39,843 bases of DNA, from NCBI GenBank assembly GCA_002723295.1, contig PBNP01000016.1, positions 1-39,843 of the forward strand, given 5' to 3'. The position numbers and the translations under genes were made by a program. Shown in pieces: positions 33,587 to 38,105 of this stretch (within the stretch, counting starts at the first letter, position 1; every line of letters starts with the position of its first letter). The notes beneath the pieces were generated by a model. That model saw only the letters and a program-made list of their open reading frames with translations, was not told where the DNA came from and made no database searches. Source of the DNA: Flavobacteriaceae bacterium (lineage in GTDB: Bacteria > Bacteroidota > Bacteroidia > Flavobacteriales > Flavobacteriaceae).

Positions 33587-34453
33587 TTAATTTGAAAAAT
33601 CAATAAATTTTACTGGATTCAAAGGATAGCCCTCAGACCATAATTCAAAATGAAGATGGAATCCCGTGGAATATTTTCCTGTATTTCCAGCCATAGCAAT
33701 AACTTCTCCAGCCTCTACATTATCTCCTTGCTGTTTGTTTAATGTTGAATTATGCTTATAAATTGATAATAGTCCATATTGATGTTCAATCATAATTACA
33801 TAGCCAGTTTCAGCTGTCCACTCAGAAAAAACAACTGTTCCCCCTGCAACTGCCTTTATAGGGTCGTTTTCATTGAGGGCAATATCAACCGCAAAATGTT
33901 TATCCTCTATACTAAATTCCTCTGAAATAGTTCCTTTAGCAGGGCTATTTAAAAGGAAAAGAGTATTGTCGTCGTTTTCATGAATAATATTATATTTATC
34001 CTCTTGAGCAACAAACTCCCTTAAAAGTGAGTCCTCTTTTGAAGTCTTAGTACTTAAAATTAGTGAAGGTGATAAAGTCTCTGTTGAAACTTTTTCTATT
34101 TCTTGAATTTCTATTTCACCAGCTAGAGCGCTTTTTATTGCCAAAAGATATCTTTGTTGCTTAAGTAGGCTCAGAGAAATAGAATCTATTTTAATCGCAT
34201 TATTAATAGATTGTCTTCTCATTTCTGAAGAAGGATATCCTGGTATGAATTCCTTTATTGGAGAATATGCAATTACAAAATATGTTATTACAAATGTAAT
34301 TATTAAAAAAACGAAGAAAATCAAAACAATATTAATAATTGAAAATTTTAACTGAATTTTTTCCTCAAATGTATCCTCATTTATAACTACTGCTCTATAT
34401 AGATCAAATATTTTTTTAAATCTATTTTTCTTTTCTGACTTTTTCTTTCTCAT
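33587..34453 (-). CDS. M23 family metallopeptidase, membrane-anchored
   Basis: 288 residues: a basic cytoplasmic tail, one membrane segment (about 41-63), a linker helix, and a LytM domain (about 170-285). Unlike the EnvC-like protein at 13776-14996 it keeps all zinc/catalytic residues: H186 and D190 in HFAVD, H234 in YKHNS, and H266-x-H268 in FHLHFEL. It should cut peptidoglycan cross-bridges in the periplasm. The start, ATG 34453, lies only 6 bases after an exact -7 element, so the mRNA is nearly leaderless. It is divergent from tatA and first in the M23-GH3-GT4-pyruvyl transferase-purD run. Confidence 0.92.
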   Translation of the reverse strand: MRKKKSEKKNRFKKIFDLYRAVVINEDTFEEKIQLKFSIINIVLIFFVFLIITFVITYFVIAYSPIKEFIPGYPSSEMRRQSINNAIKIDSISLSLLKQQRYLLAIKSALAGEIEIQEIEKVSTETLSPSLILSTKTSKEDSLLREFVAQEDKYNIIHENDDNTLFLLNSPAKGTISEEFSIEDKHFAVDIALNENDPIKAVAGGTVVFSEWTAETGYVIMIEHQYGLLSIYKHNSTLNKQQGDNVEAGEVIAMAGNTGKYSTGFHLHFELWSEGYPLNPVKFIDFSN

Positions 34454-34545: not shown

Positions 34546-34737
34546 ATGCTAATAACTATTCACTTTGGAATGATTGGTGGGCAACAAATAATTATAATTC
34601 TTGTTGTTATACTTTTGCTTTTTGGTGGGCGCAAAATACCAGAGCTTATGCGTGGTTTAGGTAGTGGTATAAAAGAATTTAAAAAAGCAAGTAAAGAGGA
34701 TGAGGCGCCTGAAAAGGATCAAGAAAAAAGTTCTTAA
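34546..34737 (+). CDS. tatA: twin-arginine translocase TatA/TatE subunit
   Basis: 63 residues from ATG 34546: a short N-terminus, one membrane helix (about 11-26, [17 protein letters not shown]), the hinge FGGRKIPEL and an amphipathic helix [15 protein letters not shown], then an acidic/lysine tail. This is the TatA plan; it forms the export pore for folded twin-arginine proteins at the inner membrane. A six-codon longer frame from GTG 34528 overlaps the -7 element and is rejected. Its TAA and the TAA of the convergent DUF4837 gene share the palindrome TTAA. It is divergent from the M23 gene. Confidence 0.92.
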
Positions 34738-35699
34738 TTTATAAAATTGATACTTTTAATTATTGTTTCAAGCTCAAACATAAAATCTCTTTTGCTTGCT
34801 GATGGGGCAAAAGCAAATCCCTCAACCATAGTATATTTTTCTCCTGAAGGCTCTAATATTGCATAATTAACAAATGGTCCAGCCATAAAATCGTTTGCAA
34901 CTTCCCATGTGCCTTTTGTTATATATGTTTTATTTTGATCTATTACAGTTTTATAATAATATGGGCGATACGCTTTTTCAGTAATCATATAAGAATTCTT
35001 TAGTCTCCCTGGAATATATATTCTCCCTATTGAATCTCTTATTTTAGGAATTGACTCATTAATTTTATCTGTTATAGCATTCTTTGGAACTCTATAAACA
35101 ATTAAATTAAGATGTCCTTTCGGAATTTGTTTTTGTATCCAAGTAAAATTAGCTGTATCCTTAACAACATTATAGGCTGAAGGATATTTTAATTTAATCC
35201 CAAATCTATTTACAATCTCATTTTCTTTGCTTAATGATTTTGACATTCTTCGTAATTTTTCTTTCCTCTCATTTTCATAAAAGAGACCTCGTATTAATGG
35301 CGCGTTTTCTTCCAAATAGAAAATCATTTCATCAGAATCTTTTCCTTTTATTATGACTAAAACTTGAGGGTTTGCATAGATGTTTGAAACCACATTAAGC
35401 CCTGGCAAAGAATCCGTTTCAAATAAAATAATATTTCTTGATTGCCTTGCAAACCCTTTAAATACTTTAGGTTCTAAATAATTAAATGAATATTGAGGTT
35501 CGTCCATTGGAAGTCCTTCATACAACTCTCCAAGAACATCTCTCGTTTTTATTCCTAAGTTTCCTTTCCAATGTTTTTGAGTCATAACTACATTTACTGA
35601 ATTAATATTCCCACTAGAATTGGGAACGTATCTTGACTTTTTAACCTCAGCACAAGACAAAAAACAAATAAAAACAAGTAGAGTGCCCTTTTTAGTCAT
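34734..35699 (-). CDS. DUF4837 family lipoprotein
   Basis: 321 residues. The signal peptide ends in the lipobox CFLSC (Cys16). The body shows [25 protein letters not shown], then [28 protein letters not shown] and [21 protein letters not shown], a pattern I recognise as the Bacteroidota DUF4837 family; function unknown. It is predicted to be anchored to a membrane, facing the periplasm. It lies 17 bases downstream of pgk, on the same strand, and overlaps the tatA stop by 4 bases. Confidence 0.8.
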
Positions 35700-35716: not shown

Positions 35717-36901
35717 TTATGTTTTTAAAGCTTCGACACCAGGGAGAGCTTTTCCTTCTAGAGCCATTAACATCGCCCCTCCTCCTGTTGAGACATAGCT
35801 CATTTTTCTTAATAATCCAAACTTTTTAACTGCTGCTACAGAATCCCCTCCTCCAATCAAGGAAAATGCTCCTTTAGAAGTTGCCATAGAAACCATTTCT
35901 CCTAATGCCATTGTCCCCTTAGCGAAAAATTCAAACTCAAAGACTCCTAATGGTCCATTCCATAAAATTGTTTTAGAATTCCGAATTATAGGCTTAATTT
36001 TCAAAATACTTTCAGGTCCAAAATCAAGCCCTTGCCATCCATCAGGAATTTGTTAGATAGAGCACACTTTTTTATTAGCCATATTGCTAAATGAATCTGC
36101 AATGATTACGTCTGATGGCAAGTGAATAGTAACTCCTTTCCTTTTAGCTTTTTCCATTAACTCTAATGCATAATTACAATAATCCGGTTCGACAATTGAA
36201 TCACCTATTGAACCACCTTGAGCTTTTATGAAAGTATATGCCATTCCTCCTCCAATCAAGATATTATCAACCCTTTCAAATAAGCTTTCTATGATGTTTA
36301 TTTTAGTAGAAATTTTTGCTCCACCTAAAATAGCAAGTATTGGCTTTTTACCAGAGTTAAAAACTTTATCAATTGATTTTAACTCTTTTTCAATTAATTT
36401 TCCTAAATATTTTTTTTTAAAAAATCGAGCTATAACAGCTGTAGAAGAGTGATTTCTATGTGCGCTTCCAAAAGCATCATTAATATATACTGATCCTAAT
36501 TTTGAAAGCTTTCTTGCAAAATTAATGTCTCCTTGTGTCTCTTCATCATAAAACCTTACGTTTTCCATAAGTAAAATTTCACCAGATTTAAGTTTTCTGG
36601 CTCTTTTTTCAGCTTGTTCCCCTATTGTTGTTGGTGAAAAATAAATATGTCGCCCTATTATTTTAGATAATGCATTAACAATATGTTTACAGGAAAAATC
36701 TGTGTTGTTTTTTTTCGGTCTTCCAATATGAGTTAACAAAACAACAGATCCGCCAGAGGATAAAACTTTGTTTATTGTTTCTTTAGAAGCTTCAATTCTA
36801 GAGGTATCAGTAATTTTTTGGTTATTATCAAATGGCACGTTAAAATCGGCTCTAATTATTGCCCTTTCTCCCGAAAAATTTATATTATCAATTGTCAGCA
36901 T
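35717..36901 (-). pseudogene. pgk: phosphoglycerate kinase interrupted by one in-frame stop codon
   Basis: Read from ATG 36901 the frame gives 282 residues of PGK (RADFNVPF, LLTHIGRP, LMENVRFY, AILGGAKISTK, GGGMAYTF) and then meets TAA at 36053-36055. The same frame continues without shift through [39 protein letters not shown] and the closing [14 protein letters not shown] to a stop at 35717. Total length is 394 codons plus the final stop, the normal PGK size. There is no insertion, deletion or frameshift; only codon 283 is wrong. The missing part contains the nucleotide-binding GGGDS loop, so a truncated product would be inactive. PGK is central to glycolysis and gluconeogenesis. A base error or a rare population variant is likelier than true loss. 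Confidence 0.88.
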
Positions 36902-37031: not shown

Positions 37032-38105
37032 ATGGAAAAATTTTGGGGTAACGATACTTTATCGACTCAAATTAAGAATGAATTAGAAAAAAAAATAATT
37101 CCTCCCTGTAGATTAATTGTTGATTCTTATGGTTGTGGCGGTCTTCTATTTGGTCTTGAAATAGCCTCTGATTTATTAGGTAGAGAAGCATTGAATCATC
37201 CTGATTTTTACATTAGTTTTCCCGTGATTATATCTGATAAAACTTCTGCTGACTTTATAAAAGACTTTAGAGACTATTTTGCCTCTAACCCATATTGTAG
37301 TTTAAGTGAATGGGCACAAAATATTAACTTATCAAAGAATAAACAAACAACTATTGGTAAACGGGAGGTAGATTTAATTCATGAAAAAATGTTTCTTAAG
37401 CCTTACGAAGGAAAAAACAAAGTTTGCCTTATTTGGTCTCCTGAAAGTCTTAATATTGTAGCAGCCAATAAACTTTTAAAGCTTATTGAAGAGCCTCCCA
37501 ATAATACATATTTCATTTTGGTTAGTGAAGAGCCTGAGCAAATTATAGAAACAATCATATCTAGATCAAATATTATTATTATTCCTCCCATAAAAATTGA
37601 AGAAATGGAGGAAAAATTGTATAAAAACGGTGTGAAGGAATCAAATAAAATTGCCATAGCATCTTCTGGAAGCTGGAGAAAGGCATTACAATTATGCAAA
37701 GGGTCAGAATTAACTAAAAATTATGAAAAATTGTGGATTACTGGTCTAAGAATTGCCTTTAAATGTAATGTAAACAAAAGTTCTTTTATCTCTATGCTGG
37801 ATTGGGCAGAAGAAGTTTCCAAATTAAATAGAGATGAACAAAAAGATTTAATCCAAACAGCCTTAGAAATTTTTAGATCGGCTTTATTAATTAACTATAA
37901 TAGTGGGTCGGTTGTAACATATATAAGTCAAAATAATTTTGAGCTTTCAAAATTAGCGCCATTTATTCACAGCTCAAATGCTCTAGAATTAGTCGATGCT
38001 CTAGAAAAGTCTCGTTTTGAAATTAAAAGAAATGCCAATTCAAAAATTTTATTTTCAAATCTAATGATTAAAATTTCTTTCCTTTTAAATCAAAAAGAAG
38101 ATTAG
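37032..38105 (+). CDS. holB: DNA polymerase III subunit delta' (clamp loader)
   Basis: 357 residues. The AAA+ clamp-loader core is recognisable by HPDFYISFPVI, KVCLIWSPESLNIVAANKLLKLIEEPPNNTYFILVSEEPEQIIETIISRS and the helical C-terminal domain. The loop where Walker A would be reads DSYGCGGLLFG, without the GK(T/S), as expected for a delta' stator that does not hydrolyse ATP. It loads the sliding clamp at replication forks with DnaX and HolA. It is divergent from pgk; a weak -7 TACATTTA lies at 37000-37007. Its TAG shares TTAG with the TAA of the convergent methyltransferase gene. Confidence 0.85.
   Translation: MEKFWGNDTLSTQIKNELEKKIIPPCRLIVDSYGCGGLLFGLEIASDLLGREALNHPDFYISFPVIISDKTSADFIKDFRDYFASNPYCSLSEWAQNINLSKNKQTTIGKREVDLIHEKMFLKPYEGKNKVCLIWSPESLNIVAANKLLKLIEEPPNNTYFILVSEEPEQIIETIISRSNIIIIPPIKIEEMEEKLYKNGVKESNKIAIASSGSWRKALQLCKGSELTKNYEKLWITGLRIAFKCNVNKSSFISMLDWAEEVSKLNRDEQKDLIQTALEIFRSALLINYNSGSVVTYISQNNFELSKLAPFIHSSNALELVDALEKSRFEIKRNANSKILFSNLMIKISFLLNQKED

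Follow-up and report, generated by a model that had tools for sequence, protein, structure and literature searches.

An in-frame TAA in the phosphoglycerate kinase gene of a draft Flavobacteriaceae genome is most likely a sequence error

The window, by which we mean the whole stretch of 39,843 nucleotides analysed here, is contig C16 of a Flavobacteriaceae draft genome (G000; 1,265,547 bases in 35 contigs, 68.8% complete). On its minus strand, positions 36901..35717 form a single phosphoglycerate kinase (pgk) frame of 395 codons, closed by a natural TAA at codon 395 and interrupted, in the given sequence, by another TAA at codon 283 (36053..36055). Codons 1-282 (36056..36901, minus strand) lie ahead of this stop, and codons 284-394 with the natural stop (35717..36052, minus strand) beyond it. 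As the initial annotation had stated, the break falls just ahead of QIPDGW, following KKVCSI. That annotation had also described a lone TAA in an otherwise intact gene, with the same frame on either side and no insertion or deletion. Both descriptions were borne out: with an X at the stop, the frame covers the PF00162 profile entirely (positions 1-379 of 379, 479.9 bits for a cut-off of 27), and it aligns without gaps over 399 residues to the orthologue of a relative, G052, meaning that no base is missing or extra. Identity to this orthologue is 69% ahead of the stop and 79% beyond it, the later part being at least as conserved; this part contains the WNGPLGVFE and GGGDS stretches, which we take to be nucleotide-binding.

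Gene order around pgk is the same in G052. On one side pgk adjoins a DUF4837 protein gene (downstream in the window, 34734..35699, minus strand), and on the other a DNA polymerase III subunit gene (DNA_pol3_delta2 in Pfam; upstream, 37032..38105, plus strand). The G052 phosphoglycerate kinase (PF00162) resembles that of the window in its full-length frame, its approximately 72% identity and its neighbours, but has AAT (Asn) and no stop where the window has TAA. Comparison of this codon among close relatives, suggested in the initial annotation, gave a sense codon in all six other genomes of the genus, where pgk was stop-free (65-72% identity) and the residue was Asn, Ser, Glu, Asn, Asp and Asn, respectively. 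The search was extended to 60 genomes of the family, the window's own included: a pgk match was found in 58, and an internal stop only in the window's own. Codon 283 could be read at 116 loci, two of which are the window's own pgk, and none of the 114 others, some of which duplicate one genome, carried a stop. Asp (42) and Asn (37) were the commonest residues at these 114 loci, duplicates counted, and Thr, Tyr, Lys, Gly, Glu, Ser, Arg, Phe and His were also met. As the position accepts many residues, it tells little about which one originally stood there. In a plasmid collection, pgk gave four partial matches of 66-72% identity, while an exact search of a viral contig collection for the site with any codon gave no match.

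The initial annotation had further proposed to look for another pgk in the rest of the genome. The window copy was the sole match in the draft, 68.8% complete as it is, and in the stretches compared by tblastn all other matches had E values of 0.81 or more. A second pgk in the assembled genome was therefore rejected. The low completeness would still leave room for an intact pgk in the unassembled part, the window copy being a decayed one. We hold this to be highly improbable: the window gene occupies the syntenic place, its part beyond the stop is conserved, and a single pgk match is the rule in the family, being seen in 55 of the 57 other genomes in which pgk was matched, while the two genomes with two matches have partial pieces near contig ends.

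We then asked how many other genes are broken in the same draft. For this census, 936 open reading frames (ORFs) of G052 were compared by tblastn with G000, all but 127 bases of which were covered. The ORFs came from 57 stretches making up 1.11 of about 1.8 Mb, or about two thirds, of G052, a draft called 90% complete. At 45% identity or more, 550 ORFs were matched in G000, over 192,019 residues. Twenty rows with a stop were obtained, of which 5 were kept; of those dropped, 12 precede the probable true start, 2 are C-terminal, and 1 belongs to a doubtful ORF (L202_17938). The five clean internal stops are in pgk, an M23 peptidase, an M28 peptidase, a nucleoside:H+ symporter and a RadA-like gene. 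Three of four frameshift rows were also kept, the same doubtful ORF being dropped: they concern a DUF1611 protein, a TIM-barrel-like gene and a formyltetrahydrofolate cyclo-ligase-like gene. By our reading, all three lack a single base, in two cases at a run of 6 or 7 A and in the third at AAA. The M23, M28, symporter and DUF1611 names are based on Pfam, and those of the RadA, TIM-barrel and cyclo-ligase genes are presumptive. In the reverse test, with G000 ORFs against G052 (550 matched, 188,710 residues), neither a clean internal stop nor a frameshift was found; 14 of the 15 stop rows were terminal, no more than 18 residues from the start or 14 from the end, and the remaining one lay in a doubtful ORF of 136 amino acids. 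Point breaks in unrelated genes are thus more numerous in G000 than in the control draft (5 stops and 3 frameshifts against 0 and 0; 8 versus 0, one-sided p = 0.004), but the contrast is weaker when nonsense codons alone are counted (5 versus 0, only p = 0.03). The compared stretches of both drafts contained no N. Scattered N, 11 to 50 per locus, were seen in loci of three relatives, G062, G063 and G064 (L114-L116, L261, L274, L275, L281, L282 and L289), and may be masked or ambiguous bases. Two of the broken genes, the symporter with its TAA and one with an A-run frameshift, are neighbours within 2.2 kb on another contig (L131:11410-13594, minus strand, C15), perhaps a stretch of locally poor consensus.

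A scan for coding potential, combined with Pfam, added two genes to this set. The first is nadE (L159:2750-3538, minus strand, C2), with an in-frame TAA at codon 204 of 263; it is the sole full-length NAD synthase match in G000, where three shorter and weaker matches lie in other genes. The second, 1091 codons long, encodes an FG-GAP repeat protein and has an in-frame TAG at codon 840 (L180:8887-8889, minus strand, C24). At least six conserved genes of G000 besides pgk therefore carry in-frame nonsense codons; the sites of these six are L159:2929, L187:14433, L138:14605, L131:12135, L163:4305 and L180:8889. A further place, L144:15722 (minus strand, C29), has a TAA joining open frames of 242 and 326 codons, with an M23 domain in the first, and no homologue spanning this stop was found.

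The scan itself went through two versions. The first, purely intrinsic, gave too much noise to be useful (272 places in G000, a large share of them antisense in appearance). A filtered version took its place and returned, when no start codon was allowed within the next 15 codons, 8 places in G000 and 4 in G052. Of the eight, the M28, RadA-like and FG-GAP genes were kept; outside the kept set are L144, L129 (no Pfam match), L163:18084, and one place that appears twice, in the overlapping stretches L133 and L153. The symporter and nadE belonged to the 64 places with a start codon within 15 codons, from which nadE was picked by eye. The filtered scan, on which nadE and the FG-GAP gene rest, has no clean control, its four G052 places being raw hits. 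It is not exhaustive either, since pgk and the first M23 gene escaped it. The flagged match of the FG-GAP protein in G061 has its one TAA at an end, the alignment over query residues 16-1088 being stop-free, and a weak match in the window (C16:33566-33907), also flagged with one TAA, extends beyond the natural end of an M23 gene there (33587-34453). In G062, a weak match with two stops was seen.

Codons of relatives at the broken sites were then compared. At three sites the residue was invariant in the six relatives read: CAA (Gln) in nadE, TAT or TAC (Tyr) in the HLHYE stretch of the M23 peptidase, where the TAA stands at L187:14431-14433 (minus strand, C27), and TGG (Trp) in the FG-GAP gene, for which three of the six rows are distant, only 34-35% identical and perhaps paralogues. 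In each of these three cases the relatives' codon is one base away from the stop seen, and the residues differ from gene to gene. The other sites vary: Thr, Ala, Thr, Glu, Glu and Glu for the symporter, Lys in one relative and Asn in five for the RadA-like gene, and Thr in the one relative read for M28. No one residue suits all internal UAA sites (Gln in 6 of 6 for nadE, Tyr in 6 of 6 for M23, Thr, Ala or Glu for the symporter, Lys or Asn for the RadA-like gene). Because the replaced residues differ and one stop is a TAG, the set as a whole would not be repaired by reassigning one codon or by one suppressor tRNA.

Nor does UAA behave otherwise than as an ordinary terminator in this genome: TAA ends 371 of 492 G000 orthologues, and in 365 of the 492 it does so no more than 5 codons away from where the relative's gene ends. 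The draft also contains two genes of the RF-1 release factor family. A changed code or a single suppressor was accordingly rejected, in agreement with the initial annotation, which had judged a changed genetic code unlikely. That annotation had looked at TAA usage in the window only; its view of TAA as an ordinary terminator stands, but it had found TAA ending the other genes in the usual way, and in the draft as a whole other conserved genes do contain in-frame stops.

A weaker form of decoding could be envisaged, in which readthrough, an ochre suppressor tRNA or a partial code change would yield full-length Pgk across the UAA. What lends itself to this idea is that TAA accounts for seven of the eight internal stops (with L144, unconfirmed, among the seven), that pgk and nadE, each found once in G000 and normally held essential, are both cut, and that in pgk the UAA is followed by C, a leakier context. 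Nevertheless, UAA terminates normally in the orthologues just described, with both release-factor-family genes present, and pgk is stop-free in all six genus relatives; a stop conserved at the site, as expected for programmed readthrough, was seen in none of these six and at none of the 114 other loci. Differing replaced residues, the one TAG and the variable base after the stop (C in pgk, A in nadE, G in M23 and M28, T in the symporter and RadA) speak against it as well, as do the frameshifts, which suppression would not mend. No tRNA gene with a TTA anticodon was found in the stretches covering all but 127 bases of G000, a weak search in a genome 68.8% complete. Readthrough is not needed to account for the data, and we regard it, in any of these forms, as very improbable. 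A variant in which near-cognate tRNAs would read through the pgk and nadE UAA codons of a lineage with leaky UAA, such stops being nearly neutral and drifting in, seems to us more improbable still.

The remaining alternative is a real pgk nonsense allele, present in part of the population, whether in dead or dying cells or in recently mutated lineages, and picked by the assembler for the consensus. A metagenome consensus may adopt a minor allele, the conserved part beyond the stop would fit a very recent event, and at the invariant broken sites a single base separates the stop from the relatives' codon. It would however require that pgk, nadE and several other genes all be minor alleles chosen in one draft, and the relative G052 has no clean case; we consider it unlikely, although less so than any form of readthrough.

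We conclude that the break in pgk most likely reflects a sequence error rather than new biology, and rate the chance that its TAA is a wrong base in the draft consensus as high. The reasons are that the same draft has similar point breaks scattered over it, together with A-run frameshifts, and that the relative tested has no clean case; the sequencing or assembly error listed among the options in the initial annotation is thereby favoured. The G000 breaks as a whole are most likely scattered consensus errors and, less likely, in some cases real nonsense alleles. The pgk TAA would then be one of a scatter of point errors across the draft, the source reads would carry a sense codon at 36055..36053, and the organism itself would very probably carry one unbroken pgk, at the syntenic place. 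Were all five census stops errors, they would amount to about 1.6×10−4 substitution errors per base (95% range 0.5×10−4 to 3.6×10−4). One feature goes against purely uniform error: TAA is somewhat over-represented, making up all 5 census stops and 7 of the 8 stops overall (the unconfirmed L144 included), for an expectation of 51% under uniform errors (p = 0.035 and p = 0.041, respectively). Changes between A and T alone would yield 74% TAA.

Broken conserved genes are a known sign of error in draft assemblies (PMC6785717, PMC8548342), and the check described in these two papers, of the IDEEL type, divides protein length by best-hit length and is aimed at indels in long-read data. The G000 breaks resemble such artefactual stops of draft metagenome-assembled genomes in that conserved genes are interrupted across one draft, with A-run frameshifts among them. 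They differ from these long-read indels in that in-frame stops outnumber frameshifts. Among the literature matches listed, titles and beginnings of abstracts mention no bacterial pgk stop of this kind.

These observations serve mainly as a warning: when a draft shows a stop in an essential gene present once, a survey of its other genes against a relative can help to judge that stop before a biological cause is sought. If the pgk stop were real, it would bear on UAA decoding in marine flavobacteria.
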